Assembly: GCA_015232015.1 (NCBI GenBank)
Contig: JADGAM010000001.1
Location: forward strand, 27,340 to 91,339
Length of the DNA: 64,000 nucleotides
Direction: 5' to 3'
Origin: Oligoflexia bacterium
Lineage (GTDB): Bacteria > Bdellovibrionota > Bacteriovoracia > Bacteriovoracales > Bacteriovoracaceae
A model generated the notes under the pieces. That model was given only the letters and a program-made list of their open reading frames with translations, was not told the DNA's origin and ran no database searches. Both the position numbers and the translations under genes were made by a program. This document shows, one piece after another, positions 45,723 through 48,502 of this stretch. How positions within the stretch are numbered: the stretch's first letter is position 1; every line of letters begins with the position of its first letter.

Positions 45723-46850
45723 GTGATAATGATCATATCTAAAATAAATGAAGAGAATAATAGTAATAACAATATTGATGAAATTTCTTCGAATAAAACA
45801 ATTGATATAGGATCTCAAACAATCCCTTTATCAGAGAGAAGATTTAAGGAAATTATTGATAATTTTTCTTTAATCTCTCCAATACTTGTTTTTGGTGATG
45901 TTGGTTTAGATAAATATACTTTTGGAAATGTTTCAAGGATTTCTCCAGAGGCGCCAGTTGCAGTCTTAGAGGTAAGCAAAGAGTGGTATAAATTAGGGTT
46001 GGCCGCCAATGTAATTGATAATCTTAGAAGCTTGAAAGTTCCATCCACTCTTCTTTCAGTAATTGGGGATGATAAAAATGGATTTGAATTTGAAAAGTTG
46101 CTAAGAGAATTGGGATTAGATTCGACAAATGTTTTAAAAGTAAAAGAAAGAGTAACTACCCTAAAAGAGCGTGTAATTACTAACACTCAACAAATTTGTA
46201 GAATTGATTATGAAAATAAAAATGAACTCTCTACTGCCACCTATGATCAAATAGTAGATTTAGTTAGAAACGCAAGTTCAGAGCATTCGGCGCTCATTAT
46301 TGAAGATTACGGCAAAGGTATTGTGGAAGAAAAATCATTAAACAGCATAATAAATATTTTTAGAGAGAGTGGTAAGTTAATAACAGTAGATCCAAGTAGA
46401 AGTACAAATCCTTATTGTTATAAAAATGCTCATCTTTTAAAACCTAATTTTGAAGAAGCAAGCATAATGGTAAAGGCCCTAGGTTTTACCAGAGAAAAAA
46501 ATTTAGAAATGATGGCCAATATTTTAGTAGATAAACTTAATCTTGATATGTTGGTAATTACTCTAGGAGCAAATGGGATGGGACTTATCGATAAAAAGAG
46601 AGACGGAAAATTTCAACTGATCCCAACAGTTGCTAAAGAGGTTTTTGATGTATCAGGTGCAGGAGATACTGCAATTAGTGTGATAACTTCTTCATTGGTT
46701 GCAAAGGCCACGCTAGAAGAATCTTGTTGGATTGCTAATTGTGCTTCTGGAATTGTAGTTGCGAAAAGAGGGACAGCAACCGTTTCTATTGATGAACTCA
46801 GTAAATTCTATCGAGAGTTAGAGTATGAAATTTCTCAAAGATTTCAATAG
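45723..46850 (+). CDS. PfkB-family kinase, RfaE/HldE kinase-domain-like
   Basis: VFGDVGLDKYTFGNVSRISPEAPVAVLEV; DVSGAGDTAISVITS. Confidence 0.9.
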   Translation: MIMIISKINEENNSNNNIDEISSNKTIDIGSQTIPLSERRFKEIIDNFSLISPILVFGDVGLDKYTFGNVSRISPEAPVAVLEVSKEWYKLGLAANVIDNLRSLKVPSTLLSVIGDDKNGFEFEKLLRELGLDSTNVLKVKERVTTLKERVITNTQQICRIDYENKNELSTATYDQIVDLVRNASSEHSALIIEDYGKGIVEEKSLNSIINIFRESGKLITVDPSRSTNPYCYKNAHLLKPNFEEASIMVKALGFTREKNLEMMANILVDKLNLDMLVITLGANGMGLIDKKRDGKFQLIPTVAKEVFDVSGAGDTAISVITSSLVAKATLEESCWIANCASGIVVAKRGTATVSIDELSKFYRELEYEISQRFQ

Positions 46851-46876: not shown

Positions 46877-46905
46877 TTGATTATTTTTTAATATTGATTC
46901 ATAAT
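46877..46905 (+). promoter_or_regulatory. Sigma70-like promoter for candidate ncRNA
   Basis: TTGATT - 17 nt - CATAAT just upstream of the structured element. Confidence 0.5.
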
Positions 46906-46911
46906 CTAAAG

Positions 46912-47062
46912 ATTAAACCCGACGATAAAGGTGACCGACTTCGAAAGTATCGGGAACAAAGTTTCGCCCTAAGGATCACCCAGCGTGATTTATGGGTTTG
47001 AAATTGCCGAAACGAGGTAAAGGATCAGGTTTTTAAAGAGGGTTTTAAAATCTGGTCTTTTT
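46912..47062 (+). ncRNA. Candidate structured, pseudoknotted ncRNA with intrinsic terminator
   Basis: AAACCC(46915-46920)/GGGTTT(46994-46999), GGTGA(46930-)/TCACC(46976-), CCGACTT..AAG.TA.TCGG hairpin, GTTTCG(46961-)/CGAAAC(47008-) pseudoknot, then ATCAGGTTTTTAAA/TTTTAAAATCTGGT hairpin + CTTTTT. Confidence 0.65.
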
Positions 47063-47178
47063 GGGAGGTACAAAAATATCTTTCTTATGATTTAGTGTCA
47101 TTAAATTTGTTACATTTTCTTATAATTTTCCCTCAGTTAATCTTACAGCTTTTTTTGATGCTAAATTGAACATATTTT

Positions 47179-47350
47179 AAGAGATCCATCGGTTCCTTTT
47201 CTTTTTTTATTTTATTTTTCATGGACGATATTTTTTTCTATGTAAGGATATAGAAGATACAAAGCACGGGTCTCTTAATGATTATTATTTAACCATCGCA
47301 ATCTGATAAATAGATGGATTATAATTCGGCATATACGCCGACTATTTTTT
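47179..47350 (+). ncRNA. Second possible small RNA region
   Basis: AAGAGATCC(47179-47187)/GGGTCTCTT(47268-47276) stem; TATAAT at 47121; TCGGC-atatac-GCCGA hairpin followed by CTATTTTTT. Confidence 0.35.
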
Positions 47351-47368
47351 AAATAAAAAAATATTATT

Positions 47369-47406
47369 CCCCTCTTTATGATTAAATTTGTAAAGAGGGG
47401 TTTTTT
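47369..47406. terminator. Strong intrinsic terminator, probably bidirectional (serves gpsA on the minus strand)
   Basis: CCCCTCTTTA / TAAAGAGGGG perfect 10-bp stem with T6 downstream and A-rich upstream. Confidence 0.85.
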
Positions 47407-47458
47407 ATTTTAGGAATGGGAACTTAAGCGGATGAACTACTTCTTGTTTGACGGCCTC

Positions 47459-48502
47459 TTAGAAAAGAGTTTTTACTCTAGAAGAAAATTCCATGAGATT
47501 ATTTATAACTGATTTAGGGTTAGCATTTTCATATAACACATCATATACACCATTAAATATTTTACATTTAATATCGTATTTTTCAGATAGTAATTGGGCG
47601 GCCTTAGTGGTTTGATAACCTTCAATTACAGTGTGTTGCTTTTTAAAAATTTCTTCTATTGATATACCTTTTGCAATTTGCATTCCAAAAATTTTATTTC
47701 TACTTAAGTTTCCTGTGGTAGTAAGAATTAAATCACCCATGCCACTAAATCCATAAAAGCTCTCTGATCTAGCATTAAAAACCACACCAAAACGTAACAT
47801 ATCTGCAATACCTGCGGTAATAAGCGCGGCCCTGGTATTGTGATTATATCCAAGCTCTTCTATAATTCCTCCAGCGATGGCCAACACATTTTTCAAAGCA
47901 CCTCCAAGCAACACTCCTTTAATATCGTAAGTGGGAAATAATTTAAAAAAGGAGGTGTTTAGCATATTAGATACAAGGTTTAATGTTTTAAGCGATTTTC
48001 CTGCTAGAGAAACTAAAGTAATTTGTTGTTGTAAAATCTCCTCTGCAAAAGATGGCCCTGATAAAAAAGTGATGAGATCTTGATGTTCATGAAAATAATC
48101 GAAAATAACATCGTCTGAAAGTTTAAGATCGCTATGATCAATTCCTTTGGTTAAAGAAACAAAAGGAATGTTTGCATTTAAGTAGTAAGCAATATTTTGA
48201 TTATAAGTAGAATAATAACTTTTAATTGCACCAGAAGGTAATCCTGAAACAATAATTTCTACCTCTGAAATTGCAGAGATTGTATCAACTTCTTGCCATT
48301 CAAGTGCAGGAATAACATTTGTTGGTAATTTTATACCAGGAAGATATTCGGAATTTTCACCACGCTTAAACATCTCATAGATTTCTTTACGCCGTACTTT
48401 GATTATTACTTTTTTAAAGTTGTTAGCGAGAACTGATGCCATGGATGTTGCAAACATTCCAGCGCCAATAATTATTGCGGTATTATATTTTTTAGTTGTC
48501 AT
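47459..48502 (-). CDS. gpsA: NAD(P)-dependent glycerol-3-phosphate dehydrogenase
   Basis: IIGAGMFATSMASVLANN, LSGPSFAEEIL, GALKNVLAIAGGI, GFSGMGDLILTTTGNLSRN. Confidence 0.94.
   Translation of the reverse strand: MTTKKYNTAIIIGAGMFATSMASVLANNFKKVIIKVRRKEIYEMFKRGENSEYLPGIKLPTNVIPALEWQEVDTISAISEVEIIVSGLPSGAIKSYYSTYNQNIAYYLNANIPFVSLTKGIDHSDLKLSDDVIFDYFHEHQDLITFLSGPSFAEEILQQQITLVSLAGKSLKTLNLVSNMLNTSFFKLFPTYDIKGVLLGGALKNVLAIAGGIIEELGYNHNTRAALITAGIADMLRFGVVFNARSESFYGFSGMGDLILTTTGNLSRNKIFGMQIAKGISIEEIFKKQHTVIEGYQTTKAAQLLSEKYDIKCKIFNGVYDVLYENANPKSVINNLMEFSSRVKTLF

Follow-up and report, generated by a model that had tools for sequence, protein, structure and literature searches.

The window analysed here (the whole stretch of DNA, 64,000 nucleotides) has a gap bounded by a kinase gene at 45723-46850 and by gpsA at 47459-48502 on the minus strand, and the question arises of which RNA, if any, this gap encodes. 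The original prediction placed there a candidate orphan structured RNA of about 150 nt, of no known class, with a promoter, a pseudoknot and a terminator of its own; all the strings that it quoted are indeed present between the two genes. In our analysis, positions 46915-47023 quite likely encode an aptamer of a divergent c-di-GMP-I (GEMM-I) sub-type, which would make up the 5' portion of an independent transcript, about 500 nt long and related to merRNA. The features of the locus are collected in Table 1.

Table 1. Features of the RNA locus, in window coordinates.
Feature	Position	Strand	Basis
Promoter-like site TTGATT-N17-CATAAT	46877..46905	+	9/12 matches; equivalent layout in L024
Aptamer, variant of c-di-GMP-I (P1; P2 ending in the GAAA tetraloop; P3 containing the 11-nt receptor)	46915..47023	+	R1 111.7 bits; covariation, 53 sequences
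Equivalent of ligand contact G20	46930	+	G in 40/40
GAAA tetraloop of P2	46943..46946	+	sequence, alignment
A at the C44 position, one side of the interhelical pair	46955	+	A in 40/40 family members
Equivalent of ligand contact A47	46958	+	A in 40/40
P3 stem: AGTTTCG 46960-46966 with TGAAATT 46999-47005; CCC 46967-46969 with GGG 46994-46996; distal hairpin between	46960..47005	+	
11-nt tetraloop receptor: CCTAAG 46968-46973 and TATGG 46991-46995	46968..46995	+	sequence, alignment
T at the G83 position, other side of the interhelical pair	46998	+	T in 38/40 family members
Equivalent of ligand contact C92	47007	+	C in 39/40
Domain-closing hairpin, 3' of the aptamer and 5' of the Shine-Dalgarno motif	47019..47061	+	15-bp helix; equivalent position in relatives without T-run
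Shine-Dalgarno-like GGGAGG	47063..47068	+	GGAGG common to relatives
ATG-ATT-TAG, possible degenerate mini-gene	47087..47095	+	18 nt after Shine-Dalgarno; weak, long spacing; TTG-ATT-TAG there in L024
Long-range 11-bp helix, TTAAGAGATCC 47177-47187 with GGGTCTCTTAA 47268-47278	47177..47278	+	sequence reading; in computed fold
Intrinsic terminator CCCCTCTTTA..TAAAGAGGGG-TTTTTTATTTT, likely 3' end	47369..47410	+	hairpin 47369-47400 and T-run; homologs have one too

Identity and fold of the aptamer

No Rfam family reached its cut-off anywhere in the 64-kb window. The c-di-GMP-I model RF01051 (gathering cut-off 35 bits) did not report the window copy even when searched leniently, the other Rfam classes gave nothing relevant for this copy in an equally lenient search, and no RF01051 copy was found elsewhere in the same genome. 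While the window copy lies below any Rfam cut-off, its relatives reach RF01051, with scores above the threshold in G067 (38.5 bits) and G007 (locus L006, 36.5 bits) and below it at L003, L007 and L005 (34.5, 33.4 and 30.9 bits). L003 is 92% identical to the window copy; at the DNA level, the one other genome of the window's genus has a 92% identical copy, and weaker copies occur in the family. The window copy differs from the sister copy in two non-standard pairs beside the tetraloop. A covariance model built from four family sequences only (R1; its refined version is R2) also finds ordinary c-di-GMP-I loci, namely L010 (35.4 bits) and L013 (23.6 bits). The exclusion of c-di-GMP-I, made by eye in the original prediction, was thus mistaken, and the RNA is no orphan: we consider it nearly certain that it is a relative of the c-di-GMP-I aptamer. 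A covariance model is now available for this sub-type, which Rfam misses.

The P1/P2/P3 layout, the GAAA tetraloop and the 11-nt receptor of c-di-GMP-I are all recognisable, together with the positions G20, A47 and C92, which contact the ligand (PMC4744006). Both the tetraloop and its receptor are present in the window sequence, and their docking is predicted. In an alignment of 53 sequences, the P1, P2 and P3 helices were paired in 90.8% of cells and showed 394 doubly changed cells, as compared to 111.5 in shuffles, with changes on both sides in 23 of the 27 pairs. The covariation score was 0.714 vs. 0.209 in shuffles, and the signal disappeared when the partners were slid. The alignment had been fitted to the structure, which biases these counts; the effect is, however, much larger than such a bias would explain.

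Of the helices that had been proposed, the hairpin CCGACTT..AAG..TCGG is real; the others were assessed by pair counts in 40 family members. The loop GTTTCG, which was thought to form a pseudoknot with CGAAAC (60% paired, seven doubly changed cells), pairs with TGAAATT in P3; there, AGTTTCG/TGAAATT is 94.6% paired with 82 doubly changed cells and CCC/GGG is 100% paired with 29. Neither the closing stem AAACCC/GGGTTT (74% paired, two double changes) nor the nested GGTGA/TCACC (57%, one double change) was borne out.

The RNA departs from canonical c-di-GMP-I aptamers in the interhelical Watson-Crick pair C44-G83, which has been called universal among GEMM riboswitches (PMC4744006). In the window's family this pair is A44-U83 almost throughout (Table 1), whereas in the aligned rows from other families position 83 is G in 10 out of 10 and the pair is C-G, two of these rows being insertion-shifted. 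Position 23 is also different, being G and not A. Judged from the alignment, the change from C-G to A-U seems to be compensatory, affecting both sides of a tertiary pair, and it defines a new aptamer sub-type. Further differences from RF01051 are that the window copy goes unreported by Rfam and that it does not lie in the leader of a sense gene. The aptamer would very likely bind c-di-GMP, a ligand that is plausible in this organism because its genome encodes at least two GGDEF proteins.

Extent of the transcript

The promoter-like site TTGATT-N17-CATAAT was found where it had been proposed, with 9 matches out of 12. Its support does not come from the count of such sites, which is 3 as compared to 2.8 in shuffles, but from L024, the sister locus in the window's genus, which keeps TTGATT-N18-GATAAT at the equivalent place.

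The hairpin with CTTTTT at 47019-47061 had been taken for the terminator. It is probably an internal hairpin, since relatives have it without the T-run, followed by GGAGG and by terminators farther downstream; moreover, the sequence conserved with L024 continues beyond it. In the window's genus it may serve for attenuation. The inner sub-hairpins bearing ACGGGTC and GTGGYGAGC, which most relatives keep, have been lost from it in this genus. A possible switch of ACCCGU in P1 to the conserved downstream ACGGGUC was considered as well; the motif recurs, but tests on single sequences fell short of significance (median p 0.44), and we regard it as a lead only.

The RNA probably extends from about 46910 to 47410, because a strong terminator (a hairpin with a T-run) is found at 47369-47410; its predicted length is therefore about 500 nt and not 150 nt. 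Recognisable terminators are located 174-397 nt 3' of the aptamer in the homologs. The fold of the originally proposed interval (46877-47062) was no more stable than that of shuffled sequences (z -1.22, 28 of 200 as good), while the interval 46910-47410 gave a z of -4.92, with none of 100 shuffles as good. Fold energies calculated region by region gave no consistent signal. In the comparison of the window with L024, the long-range 11-bp helix is kept and its spacer has diverged. With its own promoter-like site and terminator, no long sense ORF downstream and the next gene on the opposite strand, the locus agrees with the free-standing structured RNA originally proposed, and we hold with high confidence that the RNA is a free-standing transcript.

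A Shine-Dalgarno motif and a three-codon mini-gene

A GGAGG motif occurs within 400 nt after the aptamer in 40 out of 40 loci, with 76 occurrences as compared to 9.7 expected and 2 on the other strand. Of 43 loci, 32 carry a three-codon ORF right behind it, as compared to a mean of 0.78 and a maximum of 4 in shuffles; the number rises to 33 if L136 is counted, whose site is GGGGGTG. In 27 loci the ORF ends in Pro-stop (shuffle mean 0.075, maximum 2), the usual form being fMet-Gly/Asp-Pro-stop. It was found in about 15 genera, as counted from the locus labels, and in 21 distinct versions, which vary chiefly in the initial base of the start codon (T/A), the third codon bases and the final base of the stop codon (A/G). 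Variation of this kind, largely at degenerate positions, speaks against the mini-gene being a mere sequence motif. In the window's genus the Shine-Dalgarno motif is retained, but a tidy mini-gene is lacking. A helix before the Shine-Dalgarno motif was also considered as a common feature and rejected, being significant (p ≤ 0.05) in no more than 18 of the 43 loci.

Termination at Pro-stop is poor, and ribosomes or peptidyl-tRNA can become trapped on mini-genes (for reviews and references, see PMC8012679). The bar mini-genes of phage lambda (PMC8012679 and references therein) likewise consist of a start, one or two codons and a stop behind a ribosome site, a likeness of layout rather than of demonstrated inhibition. 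Here, by contrast, the predicted ORF is part of a folded RNA that carries an aptamer for a second messenger, and it mostly has Pro-stop in place of Met-Ile-stop.

Relation to merRNA and possible function

R1 matched 51 of 374 genomes of the phylum and R2 matched 44 of 130 genomes of the family, with one copy in each except G078; the genome of the window has a single R1/R2 match. Absence of a match elsewhere means little, because these scans scored only the best few candidates per genome. G078 is the sole genome with two strong copies (L039 and L054), and its contamination estimate is 9%. A search with a DNA pattern matched records of Bacteriovoracales/Halobacteriovoraceae (L125, L127 and L132), besides a few likely chance matches. 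In a member of the family (G105), a different c-di-GMP-I match of 45 bits (L114) immediately precedes a protein gene, as in a classical riboswitch. In families f8 and f12 the c-di-GMP-I RNA is compact (L059, L062, L068, L010 and L013) and frequently precedes queE, from which a terminator separates it. There, GAAGAGG and CCCCCTTT on the 5' side of the aptamer have their complements, CCTCTTC and AAAGGGGG, on its 3' side, which might form a switch.

The merRNA of B. bacteriovorus HD100 (1,073,741-1,074,185, minus strand) is massively expressed in attack phase, at a level equal to all protein-coding reads, and was reported as restricted to Bdellovibrio and devoid of a conserved downstream ORF (PMC3627812). 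An RF01051 match in HD100 (G155:C1:1073868-1073951, minus strand) falls inside this span; with RF01051, 144 genomes of the phylum, HD100 among them, gave exactly one match each. Because the phylum has one such aptamer per genome, merRNA among them, merRNA-like RNAs, as judged from these matches, occur across the phylum and are not restricted to Bdellovibrio.

The RNA of the window is likely a homologue of merRNA rather than a free aptamer that arose by convergence. Both are free-standing, single-copy RNAs of similar length (445 nt for merRNA, about 500 nt for the window RNA), with one c-di-GMP-I aptamer, Shine-Dalgarno motifs and no long ORF downstream. They differ in the position of the aptamer, near the 5' end in the window and about 230 nt in for merRNA, and in their neighbours. 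Orthology rests on copy number and anatomy, because the genomic contexts of the RNAs of the window's family (f1) and of merRNA are different. Outside the aptamer, both kinds of RNA carry GGAGG motifs and micro-ORFs, which are of different kinds: the three-codon mini-gene in the window's family, and micro-ORFs of the MEG..DWFHSP and ..DHHDEPPK types in merRNA.

The two micro-ORFs are conserved in the merRNAs of Bdellovibrionaceae (L104, which is HD100, L105-L108, L011, L116, L141-L147 and L160-L167). The 5' one (..DHHDEPPK*/..NHNDKSPK*) has a Shine-Dalgarno motif and changes mostly in a synonymous or conservative way, with minor letters distributed 28/8/39 over the codon positions. The 3' one (MEG..DWFHSP*) varies in length in steps of three. 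The candidate peptides of HD100 are MRTHEHHDDELK and MEGTNTYKDWFHSP. Constraint on the nearly invariant GATTGGTTTCATTCCCCT may act at the RNA level and not on its codons; translation of this region is favoured because the length changes before GATTGGTTTCATTCCCCT stay in-frame. As far as these patterns of change indicate, merRNA may be translated. Loci of other families and genera (L112, L117, L118, L119, L140, L155 and L157) have a micro-ORF on the 5' side of the aptamer with the tail DPPPE, DPPPK, DPKPK, DPAPE or DPGYE; these tails differ from that of Bdellovibrionaceae and yet look related to it. The micro-ORFs and the occurrence across the phylum go beyond the published description of merRNA; the latter, together with the A-U interhelical pair and the three-codon mini-gene, is what this analysis adds.

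As a mechanism we tentatively propose ribosome loading, a possibility that falls short of probable. The RNA would bind c-di-GMP, and binding would stabilise P1 and the docking of P2 with P3 and so alter the access of ribosomes to the Shine-Dalgarno motif. Ribosomes starting at the mini-gene would then terminate slowly after fMet-Gly/Asp-Pro. Such a c-di-GMP-gated ribosome-loading RNA would control its own stability or hold ribosomes, and might take part in switching between hunting and growth.

A reservoir role was proposed for merRNA (PMC3627812), in which an abundant RNA absorbs c-di-GMP and later releases it, with the 3' part serving only to stabilise the RNA. The extreme abundance of merRNA in attack phase, the conservation of the ligand-contacting residues and the free-standing nature of the RNA with its own terminator agree with this explanation, but a pure sponge needs neither a Shine-Dalgarno motif and a three-codon ORF under codon-like selection nor the two micro-ORFs of the Bdellovibrionaceae merRNAs, and we consider it rather unlikely.

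The RNA could also be an ordinary cis riboswitch, controlling the downstream gene by attenuation or read-through, with the mini-gene as a leader ORF. In most loci of the family the kinase gene lies upstream on the same strand and pheS, also on the same strand, downstream, with a terminator before it. However, gpsA is antisense in the window and in L024, L032 is divergent from pheS and L025 is without pheS at that place; the terminators show no visible overlap with the aptamer, and pheS is, to our knowledge, no known target of c-di-GMP. We consider control in cis improbable.

CsrB-type RNAs sequester a CsrA/RsmA-type protein via GGA motifs, and the recurring GGA-rich motifs of our RNAs could do the same, the aptamer gating release; we find this very improbable, as the enriched motif is the full GGAGG, located at start-codon distance from an NTG codon, and the variation is codon-like. 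Equally improbable is that the A44-U83 sub-type, with its unusual pair and the G at position 23, senses another cyclic dinucleotide: the determinants of base specificity, G20 and C92, are kept (cGAMP is accepted after G20A and c-di-AMP after G20A/C92U; PMC7288161), and GGDEF proteins are encoded in the same genome.

Ribosome loading, the reading that we tentatively prefer, can be extended to all merRNA-type RNAs of this phylum of predators, which would then be abundant c-di-GMP-gated ribosome traps, made of a strong Shine-Dalgarno motif and a mini-gene or micro-ORF, often with Pro-stop, and acting through slow recycling or stalling; as a general statement this is doubtful. If true, such traps would couple the capacity for translation to c-di-GMP during the hunting phase. 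With a phylum-wide merRNA, a swapped interhelical pair and conserved, putatively translated elements, the role of merRNA, a puzzle since 2013, becomes testable.
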